Below, one piece after another: positions 24,485-28,240 of a stretch of 37,854 bases of DNA. Where the stretch lies: NCBI GenBank assembly GCA_020629755.1, contig JAHDCS010000019.1:1-37854 (forward strand), read 5' to 3'. The notes beneath the pieces are model-generated. The model was not told where the DNA came from. It did no database searches and saw nothing but the letters and a program-made list of their open reading frames with translations. This stretch comes from Flavobacteriales bacterium. Its GTDB lineage: Bacteria > Bacteroidota > Bacteroidia > Flavobacteriales_G > JALEGO01. The position numbers were made by a program, and so were the translations under genes. The first letter of the stretch is position 1, and the number at the start of each line of letters is the position of its first letter.

Positions 24485-24862
24485 ATGATTCCTGAAGGTT
24501 TAAAATATACCAAAGAGCACGAATGGGTTAAAATAGAGGGCGATACCGCCATAGTTGGCATTACAGATTTTGCCCAAAAAGAACTAGGCGATATTGTCTT
24601 TGTTGAAATTGATACAGAAGGAGAGCGCTTAGAAAAAGACGACATATTCGGAAGCATTGAAGCGGTAAAAACAGTATCTGATTTATTTATGCCTCTAAAT
24701 GGAGAAATTATTGAGGTTAACACTGCTTTAGCTGACGCCGCTGAAGTTGTAAACACAGATGCTTATCAAGAGGGCTGGATGATTAAAATAAAGATTGAAG
24801 ATCCTGCTCAAATTGATGATTTGATGTCTGCAGACCAGTATGCCGCTCACATACAAGGCTAA
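24485..24862 (+). CDS. gcvH: Glycine cleavage system H protein
   Basis: Lipoyl carrier that shuttles the aminomethyl group between the P, T and L proteins of glycine cleavage. It has 125 residues, the normal length. The N terminus IPEGLKYTKEHEWV and the lipoylation site SIEAVKTVSDLFMP (K62) are clear, as is the segment GEIIEVN and the C-terminal GWMIKIK. The gene sits between envelope genes, so its transcription is probably tied to them. The VanZ-like start overlaps its 3' end by 23 nt. Confidence 0.97.
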   Translation: MIPEGLKYTKEHEWVKIEGDTAIVGITDFAQKELGDIVFVEIDTEGERLEKDDIFGSIEAVKTVSDLFMPLNGEIIEVNTALADAAEVVNTDAYQEGWMIKIKIEDPAQIDDLMSADQYAAHIQG

Positions 24863-25214
24863 TAGAAAAGTACATAAGCTAGCATTCTTTTTTTGGCTTG
24901 GCTTAACTGCCTTTTTATGTTTAAGCCCAGGAAATGATCAGCCACCTCTTTTTTGGTTTGATGGATTAGATAAGTTGGTTCATTTTATATTGTTTTTTGT
25001 GCTTTGTTTTTTGGGGGGATTAGCCTACGGCGTATACAAAAAGAATTTGCTTGTAGGGTTGTTTTTATCAGCCGTTTTTTTTGAAGGAGCGCAAATGTAT
25101 ATCCCACTTAGAAGTTTTGAAATCGTAGATTTAGCTATGAATTTTTTTGGTGTTTTATTCGGAGGGATCATCCACGCAGTTGTATGTAAACCAAAGTCTG
25201 CCTTTTTTAAATAG
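24840..25214 (+). CDS. VanZ-like small membrane protein
   Basis: 124 residues with three or four membrane segments (LAFFFWLGLTAFLCLSP, LVHFILFFVLCFLGGLAYG, LLVGLFLSAVFFEGAQ and MNFFGVLFGGIIHAVVC). The pattern DKLVHFILFFVL and EGAQMYIPLRSFEIVDLAMNFFGVLFG are hallmarks of the VanZ-like family. The function of chromosomal VanZ-like proteins outside vancomycin/teicoplanin clusters is unknown. The start overlaps gcvH by 23 nt. A GGGGGGAT octamer encodes part of the second membrane segment. Confidence 0.85.
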   Translation: MPLTYKANRKVHKLAFFFWLGLTAFLCLSPGNDQPPLFWFDGLDKLVHFILFFVLCFLGGLAYGVYKKNLLVGLFLSAVFFEGAQMYIPLRSFEIVDLAMNFFGVLFGGIIHAVVCKPKSAFFK

Positions 25215-25266
25215 GCATAGACACTTTGACTAAATTTTTGTACATTTAGATCTTAACTTTAGGTTT

Positions 25267-25941
25267 ATGGAACTTAAAAAATCACCAGAAGCTAATCTTG
25301 AAAACAAGAGAAAGCTTTTTTTTGTTACAGGTCTTGCTTTGGCATTGGCTCTTGTTTTAGTAGCGTTTGAATGGAAGCAATATGAGCTTAGTGTCAAAGA
25401 CTTAGGCGACTTAGATGTAGAGCAAGAAGAAGAGGAGCTCATACCGATTACGCGACCAGAAGTACAACCTCCACCTCCTCCACCACCACCACCACAGCAA
25501 ATCGAATTAGATATTGTTGAAGATGAGGTAGAAACTGAAGATTTAGATATCGATTCAGAAATGGACGAAGATACCGAGACAGAAATTAAAGAGATCGTTG
25601 AAGAAGAGACCGTCGTAGCAGCGCCTAAAATTTTCACCATTGTTGAGGAAAGTGCTAAATTTCCGGGTGGAACTGCAAAAATGTATGAGTTTATTCAAAA
25701 AAACTTAAAGTATCCACAAATTGCAAAAGAAACCAATACGCAAGGCACGGTATACTTGCAATTTGTAGTGCATGAAACAGGTAAAATATCTGACGTTAAA
25801 GTAATGAGAGGAATTGGGGCGGGTTGTGACCAAGAAGCTTCTCGAGTGGTGAAAGCCATGCCGAATTGGATACCGGCGAAGCAAAGAAATCAGCCTGTGG
25901 CCATGTATTTTACACTGCCTATTAAATTTACATTAAGGTAA
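25267..25941 (+). CDS. Energy transducer TonB
   Basis: 224 residues with the full TonB architecture: a short cytoplasmic N terminus, one membrane anchor (about 17-37, LFFVTGLALALALVLVAFEW), a proline-rich spacer containing nine consecutive prolines, an unusually acidic stretch (about 80-120, rich in E and D) and a TonB C-terminal domain (about 140-224). The C-terminal domain shows YPQIAKETNTQGTVYLQFVV, GCDQEASRVVKAMPNWIPAK and a final FTLPIKFTLR. It links the ExbBD proton-motive complex to outer-membrane TonB-dependent transporters. exbB/exbD are not in the window. It is first of three consecutive TonB-domain genes, 52 nt after the VanZ-like gene, with TACATTTA and TAACTTTA elements in that gap but no TTG at proper distance. 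Confidence 0.93.
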   Translation: MELKKSPEANLENKRKLFFVTGLALALALVLVAFEWKQYELSVKDLGDLDVEQEEEELIPITRPEVQPPPPPPPPPQQIELDIVEDEVETEDLDIDSEMDEDTETEIKEIVEEETVVAAPKIFTIVEESAKFPGGTAKMYEFIQKNLKYPQIAKETNTQGTVYLQFVVHETGKISDVKVMRGIGAGCDQEASRVVKAMPNWIPAKQRNQPVAMYFTLPIKFTLR

Positions 25942-25952
25942 TTCCGTATAAA

Positions 25953-26345
25953 ATGGTTCGAGCCATTGCCCTAATTGTGTTGGTGTACTGCATGCATGGT
26001 AGTGTGTGTGGTCAAGAGAATGTAAAAACGGTAGGGGTGTATACCATCGTTGATAAAGAAGCATCTTACCCTGGAGGTGAAAAAGCCCTCTCTCGTTTTT
26101 TAGTGTCTAATATTATCTATCCTAGACGCGCTCAAAAGAAAAACATTGAAGGCACTGTGCTGATTCAATTTATTGTGAAGAAAAATGGAGGTATAGAAAA
26201 GGCCAAAATTCTAAAAGGCATAGGCGGAGGATGTGATGTGGAGGCATTGCGCGTAGTGAAAGAAATGCCGAATTGGAATCCTGGTGAGCAAGATGGCGTA
26301 GCTGTAGATATGTTTTTTACATTGCCTATTTCTTTTAGCTTATAA
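25953..26345 (+). CDS. Anchorless exported TonB C-terminal-domain protein (copy 2)
   Basis: 130 residues. An N-terminal hydrophobic segment (AIALIVLVYCMHGSVCGQ, cleavage near residue 20) is followed almost directly by a TonB C-terminal domain (about 40-130). There is no proline spacer. The domain is close to that of the preceding gene: IIYPRRAQKKNIEGTVLIQF, KGIGGGCDVEALRVVKEMPNW and FTLPISFSL. If the signal is cleaved, the protein is soluble in the periplasm and cannot itself draw energy from ExbBD; if it is retained, the domain would sit against the inner membrane. It is probably a duplicate of the TonB gene. It starts 11 nt after the upstream stop. Confidence 0.85.
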   Translation: MVRAIALIVLVYCMHGSVCGQENVKTVGVYTIVDKEASYPGGEKALSRFLVSNIIYPRRAQKKNIEGTVLIQFIVKKNGGIEKAKILKGIGGGCDVEALRVVKEMPNWNPGEQDGVAVDMFFTLPISFSL

Positions 26346-26357
26346 GGTTTTGTTACA

Positions 26358-26762
26358 ATGAGGATGTATGTCAATGTTTTCATGTTCTTCAAAGCAAGTC
26401 TGGTATTTAGTCAAGTAAACTATCAAAAAGAAAATAAAGAGCAATCTATTCATAGTTCTTTTGTAAACACTAAAGCACAATTTAAGGGAGGTTTTGACTC
26501 TTTAATGTTTTACATTCAACAAAACATGGTTCTGCCTAAAGAGCAACATGAGCTCAATCTTTATGGCCATGTAAAAGCTGATTTTTTAATCACAAAAAAC
26601 GGAAAGATTCAAGATGTTAAAATTATAGAATCACTTCATCCAATTTGTGATTCTCTAGTGATGGGGCTTATAAATGCTATGCCTAATTGGGAGCCAGCCC
26701 TGCATGGCAATATCCCTATTGAATCTAGATACACATTGCCTATAAACTTTGTGAAGCCATGA
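26358..26762 (+). CDS. Anchorless exported TonB C-terminal-domain protein (copy 3, divergent)
   Basis: 134 residues. A short signal peptide (VNVFMFFKASLVFSQ) precedes a diverged TonB C-terminal domain. The framework is kept (AQFKGGFDSLMFYIQQNMVLP, HVKADFLITKNGKIQDVKII, LINAMPNWEPAL, YTLPINF), but the GxGxGCDxEA motif of the first two copies becomes ESLHPICDSLVM. It lies 12 nt after copy 2 and overlaps the next gene by 4 nt (ATGA), so the two are probably translationally coupled. Function unknown; it may be an adaptor of the TonB system or a relic of duplication. Confidence 0.78.
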   Translation: MRMYVNVFMFFKASLVFSQVNYQKENKEQSIHSSFVNTKAQFKGGFDSLMFYIQQNMVLPKEQHELNLYGHVKADFLITKNGKIQDVKIIESLHPICDSLVMGLINAMPNWEPALHGNIPIESRYTLPINFVKP

Positions 26763-28240
26763 GATCTCTTTTTAGTCTTATTCTTTGGCTTTTTATAGGT
26801 GTTTGTATCAATCTAAGTTACAGTCAAGATACCATTGATGTGTATACTTTTGGGGATGGATATTACAATAAAGGGCATGCCATTGATCTAAGTATGGATA
26901 ATGGATTTATTATAGGCGGATCAAGTTTTAATGTACAGAACAATTCGTCAGACTTTTATGTCATCAAACTAGATAGCACTTTAGATAAACAATGGTCTTA
27001 TGTTTATGGATCAGATCATTTAGACGTCTTAACCGATGTTAAAGAATTGCCCAATCAAAACATCTTAATTCTTGGATATACCAACACAAATTTATCATCA
27101 GGCTATGATATTACCTTGCTATGCTTATCTGCATCAGGGCATTTTCTATGGCAAAAAGTATACAGCAGACCCGATTGGGACTTTGCCTATAAAATCATTG
27201 AGTTACCTAATCAAGAGATGGTTTTAATTGGCGAAACGTATAGCAATACACAAGGCAATTCAGATGCGTATTTGCTTTATGTAAATCAAAACGGAGACAG
27301 TTTAACGAGTCGTTTGTTCGGCACACAAAGATTTGAGATGTTTTCAGATGCAACACTGCTTTCAGATTCTTCTTTGGTGTTGTGTGGAGCGTCGTATCTT
27401 TCAGATAGTATTAGTGATATTTATCTGGTGTGCCAAACTCAATCTGGCACAACGCTATATGAAAAAACACTTTCTGGATCTCCCTTTGCTAGTGCTCAAG
27501 GTATTGATACAGATCAAAATGATCATCTTTACCTTTCAGGTACCAGTAATGGGCATAACCAAAGAATGGATAAAGACATTTTTACATTAAAGCTTTCAGC
27601 CTTAGCCGACACTATTTTTGATAAAGTCTATGCAGCCTCTTATGATACTAGTTTAATTGAAAACAAAGACGATTTTGGACATCAAATCTTTGTGCGCTCA
27701 AATCAAGAAGTATTAAATGTTGGGGTAACCACCACTTATGGGTTTGGCATAGACAGAATAGCCTTTTCACTTACAGATACTATGGGGCAAGATCTTTTAG
27801 CTCAATCGCCAGATCTTGATTATTCCATACAAGATATCGTAGAAAAAGATAGCATATTATATATGGTCGGAAGCACACAGTTAATAGGCAATGGTCAAGA
27901 TGATGTGCTGTTAATTACGATACAAAACATTCAGAATACATATGAGTTAAATACGCATGTACTGGCAGATACAGCCATTGTATCTGATCAGCTTAAACCT
28001 GTAAAAGAAAATACGGCATCTATTCAGCTCTATCCTAACCCAAACCATCAAGGCGAATTTTGGATAAAAGGCTCTAAAGTTCCTCACAAGATCAAGGGCT
28101 ATACGCTTAGTGGTCAGTGTGTTGATATGCGTTGCACTAATAATCATTGTGTCTTAAAAGACGCCTTGCCAGGGGTGTATATAATTGAGTGCATTTACAA
28201 TGGCAATGAGCGTTTTGCCTTTACCTTATTGGTAGACTAA
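26759..28240 (+). CDS. T9SS-exported protein with WD/propeller-like repeats
   Basis: 493 residues. A signal peptide (LFSLILWLFIGVCINLSYSQ) is cleaved near residue 22. Residues 25-390 contain repeated units of about 50-60 residues with the pattern GGSS..N..SDFYVIKLDS..D..W..VYG, typical of bacterial beta-propeller proteins. A type A sorting domain follows, with YPNP at 425-428 and GVYIIECIYNGNERFAFTLLVD at the end. Surface or secreted location is expected; no enzyme motif is visible. Its ATGA start overlap with TonB copy 3 suggests coordinate synthesis. Its last 20 nt overlap the convergent ABC ATPase gene. Confidence 0.82.
   Translation: MRSLFSLILWLFIGVCINLSYSQDTIDVYTFGDGYYNKGHAIDLSMDNGFIIGGSSFNVQNNSSDFYVIKLDSTLDKQWSYVYGSDHLDVLTDVKELPNQNILILGYTNTNLSSGYDITLLCLSASGHFLWQKVYSRPDWDFAYKIIELPNQEMVLIGETYSNTQGNSDAYLLYVNQNGDSLTSRLFGTQRFEMFSDATLLSDSSLVLCGASYLSDSISDIYLVCQTQSGTTLYEKTLSGSPFASAQGIDTDQNDHLYLSGTSNGHNQRMDKDIFTLKLSALADTIFDKVYAASYDTSLIENKDDFGHQIFVRSNQEVLNVGVTTTYGFGIDRIAFSLTDTMGQDLLAQSPDLDYSIQDIVEKDSILYMVGSTQLIGNGQDDVLLITIQNIQNTYELNTHVLADTAIVSDQLKPVKENTASIQLYPNPNHQGEFWIKGSKVPHKIKGYTLSGQCVDMRCTNNHCVLKDALPGVYIIECIYNGNERFAFTLLVD

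Follow-up and report, generated by a model that had tools for sequence, protein, structure and literature searches.

Anchorless TonB C-terminal domain proteins encoded beside tonB in a Flavobacteriales bacterium are one case of a recurrent class in Bacteroidota

TonB powers nutrient import through outer-membrane gates. In a 37,854-nt stretch of DNA from a Flavobacteriales bacterium (GenBank assembly GCA_020629755.1, contig JAHDCS010000019.1, forward strand; hereafter the window), a gene for a full TonB (copy 1) is followed directly by two genes for small proteins (copies 2 and 3) that have the TonB C-terminal domain (TonB_C, PF03544) and its fold and have no TonB-type anchor or spacer. These two proteins are one instance among others, not a local oddity: anchorless TonB domains (hereafter solos) form a class that recurs in Bacteroidota, and such proteins resemble the neighbouring TonB in the strand that faces receptors. 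Our best explanation, which is tentative and which we hold at slightly less than even confidence, is that both small proteins are exported and, as TonB domains that cannot exert force, bind the receptors of TonB and modulate them. The trio and its parts are as follows, with a slash marking a putative signal-peptide cut.

25267..25941, + strand: copy 1, 224 aa, complete TonB with anchor, proline spacer and TonB_C; PF03544 at 66.9 bits
25315..25371, + strand: hydrophobic anchor helix of copy 1, residues 17–35; 19-residue hydropathy of 2.44 at residue 17
25468..25494, + strand: proline run of copy 1, residues 68–76, periplasmic spacer; read from the translation
25702..25935, + strand: TonB_C domain of copy 1; Pfam profile match
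25953..26345, + strand: copy 2, solo TonB_C protein, 130 aa; PF03544 at 65.7 bits; AlphaFold mean predicted local distance difference test (pLDDT) of 90.9
25953..26012, + strand: putative signal peptide of copy 2, residues 1–20, VCG/Q; from pattern and hydropathy only
26109..26342, + strand: TonB_C domain of copy 2, residues 53–130; profile match and fold match
26310..26336, + strand: strand beta3 of copy 2, residues 120–128; from DSSP of the model, role as given in an excerpt of PMC3602595
26358..26762, + strand: copy 3, solo TonB_C protein of divergent sequence, 134 aa; PF03544 at 43.6 bits; AlphaFold mean pLDDT of 88.8
26358..26411, + strand: putative, weak signal peptide of copy 3, residues 1–18, VFS/Q; Lys within the hydrophobic stretch
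26523..26750, + strand: TonB_C domain of copy 3; profile match and fold match
26724..26750, + strand: strand beta3 of copy 3, residues 123–131; from DSSP of the model

An initial annotation, made from the sequence of the window, had described three consecutive TonB-domain genes, two of them without anchor or spacer, and both statements held. All three genes lie on the + strand and exceed the Pfam TonB_C cut-off of 24.6 bits (66.9, 65.7 and 43.6 bits for copies 1, 2 and 3), scores well beyond what chance would give; copies 1 and 2 also pass TIGR01352 (NCBIfam; 43.2 and 44.9 bits, cut-off 27.1), which copy 3 fails at 15.5 bits. The genes are 11 nt (copies 1 and 2) and 12 nt (copies 2 and 3) apart, and copy 3 overlaps the gene at 26759 by 4 nt (ATGA). 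No terminator-like site was found on the + strand from 25074 to 28201, including between the three genes, and promoter-like sites were not in excess of shuffled sequence (12 vs 14.0); two of those on the + strand lie before copy 1 (25218-25246) and at the start of copy 2 (25927-25954). The translations bear out that copy 2 shares with copy 1 the GxGxGCDxEA core (GIGAGCDQEA in copy 1, GIGGGCDVEA in copy 2) and the FTLPI end. Copy 3 had been said to have lost the core, which is correct for the glycines and the EA but not for the whole conserved set, as CD, MPNW and TLPI.F are retained.

Judged by cleavage pattern and hydropathy, copy 1 has the anchor helix after a cytoplasmic stretch that is expected of TonB, and copies 2 and 3 do not. 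The N-terminus of copy 2 reads as a cleaved signal peptide (VCG/Q), with its most hydrophobic nine residues beginning at residue 5 and reaching a hydropathy of 3.11; for copy 3 (VFS/Q) these begin at residue 3 and reach 1.76, narrowly below our own filter of 1.8. The description of both proteins as a signal peptide plus a domain therefore stands for copy 2 and is weak for copy 3. The periplasm-spanning spacer is present in copy 1, and in copies 2 and 3 about 30–40 residues lead from the hydrophobic stretch to the domain. With anchor and spacer both missing, copies 2 and 3 fall outside TonB in the sense of a transducer with three domains; both are probably exported. Copy 2 of the one congener that was compared (G001) also has a cleavage pattern (AFT/Q), formed by different residues. 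The stretch YCMHGSVCG in copy 2 of the window was considered for its resemblance to the anchor motif of E. coli TonB, but we treated the likeness as chance because the copy 2 of the congener has no such residues.

Structure prediction, proposed as a check in the initial annotation, gave both small proteins as confident TonB C-terminal folds, with AlphaFold2 mean pLDDT values of 90.9 and 88.8 and ten-residue means over the domain of 97–99 (copy 2) and 91–98 (copy 3). The best match of the copy 3 model in the Protein Data Bank was FoxA-bound TonB (6i97_D; Z 11.2, 1.9 Å, 88 residues aligned), and the copy 2 model matched the TonB C-terminal domain 9ddz (Z 10.4, 2.0 Å, 81 residues aligned) and 6i97_D (Z 10.3). 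BtuB-bound TonB (2gsk_B) scored Z 8.9 and 8.6 to the two models; FhuA-bound TonB (2grx_C) scored Z 7.5 and 7.2, which is below the level of trust advised for the tool.

To define solos more widely, TonB_C frames were pooled from a copy 2 search of genome contigs, from whole-genome searches and from further sequence stretches, and were filtered for a length of ≤190 aa, a domain start at or before residue 90, a signal-peptidase or lipobox pattern, and a hydrophobic core (hydropathy ≥1.8) beginning by residue 30. Among 211 distinct frames, 44 passed, including copy 2 of the window (L153) and two near-identical pairs (L053/L054); copy 2 fits this working class in its export pattern, domain and length, and copy 3 has VFS/Q with the hydropathy of 1.76 given above. 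Solos were found in 17 or more of the 60 genomes, counting that of the window, and in 18 of 80 genome-contig loci, where the 17 is a lower bound that covers the matches listed and the part of the short frames that was fetched. Most (37/44) show a small-x-small pattern followed by Gln, 4/44 a lipobox only and 3/44 neither, and the hydrophobic core begins at a median of residue 8, compared to residue 24 in anchored copies. One further frame (L141, 162 aa, LFA/Q) is a solo by eye and fails the filter. An open-licence literature search found no paper on anchorless TonB_C proteins, and we do not claim that the class is undescribed.

Several loci show related arrangements. Two Bacteroidales metagenome-assembled genomes (L053:3959-4926 and L054:1733-2700) have a core-keeping solo followed by a divergent solo, like copies 2 and 3, and the first solo of this pair has VYTIVDKEASYPGG in common with copy 2 of the window. 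Lipobox-type solos lie among full tonB genes in Marinigracilibium pacificum and Mangrovivirga halotolerans (L077:1653-4312 and L100:3635-5588). Four TonB_C genes with signal-peptide-like starts (127, 348, 247 and 129 aa) stand in a row at L118:3947-6637, and the 348- and 247-aa proteins extend well beyond one domain. At L101:3662-4779 two TonB_C genes of the lipoprotein type adjoin, and in place of a proline spacer the first has what looks by eye like a coiled coil; L174:3261-3749 is a solo with a signal peptide pattern and, behind TonB_C, a hydrophobic C-terminal tail that resembles a membrane anchor.

Known complexes show strand pairing between the TonB box of the receptor and the third strand of TonB (beta3), as described in a part of PMC3602595, and the YP motif touches the TonB box (excerpt of PMC4446302). 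For genes that adjoin each other, we compared the excess identity in beta3 to that in nine other 11-column windows, with the rest of the domain matched. Adjoining solo and anchored genes had a beta3 excess of +0.124 (14 loci; 0/3000 draws as high), and the window overlapping beta3 had an excess of +0.140 (p 0.001); these two were the largest. A first run, which counted 22 pairs, gave +0.083 (p 0.003), and solo/solo neighbours showed a weak excess (+0.079, p 0.08, 6 loci). Copies 1 and 2 of the window are 0.73 identical in beta3 and 0.49 elsewhere. The YP motif is largely kept in solos (Y in 40/45 and P in 42/45, with copy 3, which has LP, counted), and the GxGGG loop is relaxed in solos and lost in copy 3. 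What solos lose more consistently is a Gln-Arg (QR) turn just before beta3, found in 47/73 anchored copies, 3/45 solos and 5/56 long proteins (Gln at the first position alone: 71/73, 19/45 and 40/56). QR is present in the anchored partner and absent from the solo in each of the 11 neighbour pairs (7 loci) that passed filtering; in the window, the turn is QR in copy 1, QD in copy 2 and HG in copy 3.

Within the genome of the window (2.36 Mb, estimated to be 98% complete), the three copies are the only PF03544 matches at E 0.001, and a 49-row TonB_C profile found no fourth match in this genome even at E 10; when copy 3 alone served as the query, one more TonB_C match was counted, weaker than these three and beyond the matches listed. 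ExbD matches occur at two loci, of which the one on contig 84 has exbB, a gene for a 137-aa protein and two exbD genes. The other, on contig 42 (L034:692-2603 of this genome, G000), has exbB and exbD followed by a gene for a TonB-like protein of 264 aa that begins with a hydrophobic stretch and whose C-terminus matches TonB_C at a sub-threshold 14.2 bits, and this protein is perhaps a second, divergent transducer. Receptor plug domains number 16, of which 14 are above the cut-off. Copy 1, the only full TonB at the Pfam level, therefore probably serves most of these receptors, which are also the ones that a free TonB domain would encounter.

These observations suggest the following course for the explanation given at the outset. 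Copies 2 and 3 would be made in one gene run with the only Pfam-level full TonB of the genome; their N-termini would be cut off, leaving the domain to float in the periplasm, and the third strand would pair with the TonB boxes of outer-membrane receptors. Because a free domain has no link to ExbBD, it could not pull, and it would therefore lower or time the access of TonB to receptors as a brake or place-holder, its dose tied to that of TonB by co-expression. Expression of the periplasmic part of TonB reportedly inhibits uptake in E. coli. Copy 2 is likely the active form. Copy 3 may have an altered target or bind weakly, as it has lost the Tyr of YP and the glycine-rich loop.

A number of points weigh against receptor binding, or at least against reading the beta3 likeness as a sign of it. 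Coupling of solos to tonB is not general, because 18 of the 44 have no other same-strand TonB_C gene within 600 bp; 26 do, and loci from the copy 2 search over-represent such neighbours. (Three of the 18 lie within 140 bp of the end of the locus, and the 18 include all 11 that passed from one 20-stretch sample.) The beta3 excess is shared by anchored/anchored neighbours (+0.096, 33 loci), in which the likeness looks as if maintained by common receptors or gene conversion, and two other windows are also raised in solo/anchored pairs (+0.077, p 0.012 and +0.078, p 0.020). Since the copy 2 of G001 and the TonB of G002 (a genome of the same family) are 0.91 identical in beta3 and 0.57 elsewhere despite being in different genomes, lineage or gene conversion could explain the signal, and some beta3 positions are relaxed in solos (Val from 78% to 47% at column 68). 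The QR turn is mainly confined to one anchored type, the locus L055, which is outside the pair filter, has QG in both its anchored TonB and its solo, and the comparison of residues between anchored copies and solos treats related rows as independent. The signal peptide of copy 3 is weak, and the receptor binding and uptake role of solos are putative.

The strongest rival is that solos have left transport and bind another periplasmic partner, such as peptidoglycan, ExbD, a protein of the type IX secretion system (T9SS) or envelope, or TonB itself as a heterodimer, with the TonB fold serving as a small binding module. We regard this as possible but doubtful. The neighbourless solos would be expected under such a role, as would copy 3, which retains the fold without the Tyr of YP and the GxGGG loop, and the occurrence of TonB_C in 56 aligned frames of >300 aa indicates that Bacteroidota employ it as a module. 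It fits less well that adjoining solo and anchored genes are most alike precisely in the receptor-facing strand and that most solos retain YP.

In a tree of 87 rows and 107 columns, for which support values are rough, well-supported branches require the solo label to change 5 times or more once three misfiled rows are removed (first count, at least 6), and solos thus appear to have arisen more than once. Those removed were L147 (at a contig edge), L060 (no hydrophobic start) and L145_6549 (190 aa, anchored); the recount has 35 solos and 49 other rows of 200–300 aa, chosen by length rather than by anchor. At six loci, among them that of G001 (L055, 78% identity; L133, 68%; L092, L082, L101 and L072), the nearest sequence of the solo is its own neighbouring TonB_C gene, which for L092 is itself a solo, and the copy 2 of G001 nests in the copy 1 clade of its family with support of 100/95. 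Tandem duplication is therefore a likely origin for such genes, which agrees with the first half of the proposal of duplication followed by a change of role. At L055:999-4387, a complete exbB-exbD-exbD-tonB run (by eye) ends in the solo that is 78% identical to its TonB domain, apparently a recent duplication.

The idea of a one-off gradient from copy 1 to copy 3 did not survive, since solos recur in the phylum and copy 2 of the window is nearest to the solo of the two Bacteroidales genomes (60% identity), not to copy 1 (48%, rank 29). Its placement is loose. Trees constrained to join copy 2 either with the copy 2 of G001 or with copy 1 beat the free search, by 8.2 and 5.9 log units respectively, and so did those that joined copy 3 either with copy 1 (by 27.5) or with copy 2 (by 31.3); a tree with copy 2 constrained inside the family clade was 4.9 log units lower, and no placement of copies 2 or 3 was rejected (approximately unbiased test, p 0.46-0.80 throughout). 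For substitution rates, only the direction can be used, because synonymous divergence (dS) was high or saturated in all 14 pairs, with NG86 giving no dS for four. Over the domain, copy 2 and its G001 counterpart have a nonsynonymous divergence (dN) of 0.48 and a dS of 1.39, and copy 1 and its counterpart 0.24 and 2.97; dN appears to be below dS for copy 2, which appears to evolve faster than copy 1.

Copy 2 has a syntenic counterpart in the congener, and copy 3 has none. The order in G001 is gcvH, tonB and, 11 nt downstream, a gene for a 148-aa small copy (which also starts MVR), followed by a long opposite-strand gene that reads as purF, so the counterpart of copy 2 is present and there is no copy 3. 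In G002, gcvH and then a VanZ-like gene precede tonB, which has no small copy next to it. A third genome, of the same family as G002 (G003), has a small exported-type TonB_C frame that overlaps gcvH on one contig and another behind two full TonBs on a second contig. Among the matches listed from 59 other genomes, a copy 3 search gave only ordinary TonB_C similarity (best match of 69 bits vs 297 for itself).

Another rival is that copies 2 and 3 are remnants, duplicates that are being lost and have no role, and this we consider improbable. Copy 3 is very divergent, with an end branch of 3.05 changes per column and the low best match just given, and G001 lacks copy 3, as G002 lacks both small copies beside tonB. 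Against decay, which the initial annotation had named as a possible refutation, the frames are intact, both proteins match Pfam (65.7 and 43.6 bits) and fold confidently in prediction, the congener keeps copy 2 with dN below dS, and solos have been gained repeatedly across the phylum; for copy 3, the argument is an indirect one from its intact frame and confident fold. Least likely of all, and quite improbable in our estimation, is that copies 2 and 3 are working TonBs whose uncleaved N-terminal anchors, the other refutation named in the initial annotation, meet ExbBD through a short linker: the first 19 residues of copy 2 have a hydropathy (1.87) between the means of anchored copies (2.11, 75 frames) and solos (1.71), but 37/44 solos have the cleavage pattern and 4 others a lipobox, the hydrophobic core begins far earlier than in anchored copies (median residue 8 vs 24), the proline spacer is absent, and the G001 copy 2 preserves the pattern without the residues.

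The genes that flank the trio are listed below.

24485..24862, + strand: gcvH, syntenic marker upstream of tonB; PF01597 at 150.2 bits, order kept in G001 and G002
24840..25214, + strand: VanZ-like gene between gcvH and tonB; PF04892 at 32.3 bits
26759..28240, + strand: gene downstream of copy 3, with repeats resembling a beta-propeller and a weak tail of T9SS type; no match reaches its cut-off

The VanZ-like gene is absent between gcvH and tonB in G001. Copy 3 had been described as coupled to a T9SS cargo gene; the 4-nt overlap is there, and the cargo assignment depends on sub-threshold matches of the tail (Por_Secre_tail at 17.7 bits, cut-off 27; TIGR04183 at 19.6, cut-off 23). A tRNA search of the window found none.

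Returning to receptor modulation by exported, force-less TonB domains, a wider form of this explanation would be that the tonB genes of Bacteroidota have repeatedly given rise to exported TonB C-terminal domains that occupy outer-membrane receptors, capping or reserving them, and so inhibit or time TonB-dependent import. Such domains would be recognized by retention of the beta3 edge and YP, and by having lost in parallel the anchor, the spacer and the Gln-Arg turn of anchored TonBs. We offer this generalization as a speculation that is rather unlikely to hold in full. Solos match models of true transducers (Pfam TonB_C, and for copy 2 also TIGR01352) yet should not transduce energy, because anchor and spacer are absent. 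Should solos bind receptors, they would add a level of regulation to nutrient uptake in a phylum reliant on TonB-dependent import of glycans and iron, and they would offer natural tools for telling apart the binding of a receptor and the pulling on it. Anchored copies keep the Gln-Arg turn where neighbouring solos have lost it, which makes these two residues of interest for force transfer.

Among known systems, the closest is TonB itself, the energy transducer that works with ExbBD (PF03544/TIGR01352): copies 2 and 3 are like it in C-terminal sequence and fold, and a full TonB adjoins them, but they lack the motor-contacting anchor and the periplasm-spanning spacer that are among the three domains described in a part of PMC12204202. 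The short model NF047760 (LIC_10042 family TonB-like, 156 positions) also has a TonB-like C-terminal part, and copy 2 is not a member (15.3 bits vs a cut-off of 100). SjdR (TonB1) of Anabaena, according to portions of PMC8597729 and PMC8262864, is an 'exceptionally short' TonB-like protein that serves not siderophore transport but a role in peptidoglycan; with a transmembrane domain present and a TonB-like periplasmic domain absent, it is the reverse of copies 2 and 3. TbfA/TonB3 of Riemerella anatipestifer (Flavobacteriaceae) belongs to the TonB family and is unlinked to exbBD, and its over-expression inhibited hemin uptake (excerpt of PMC5109031); unlike copies 2 and 3 it is of full size at 31 kDa (excerpt of PMC4446302), and its authors suggest competition for ExbBD rather than for receptors (PMC5109031, same excerpt). 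Soluble anchor-free TonB fragments made in the laboratory (residues 33-239 and 103-239) bind BtuB, FhuA and FecA, as stated in a part of PMC11658791, and like copies 2 and 3 they keep the receptor-binding domain without an anchor; these fragments are engineered and retain all or part of the spacer, whereas copies 2 and 3 are natural genes with a likely export signal.

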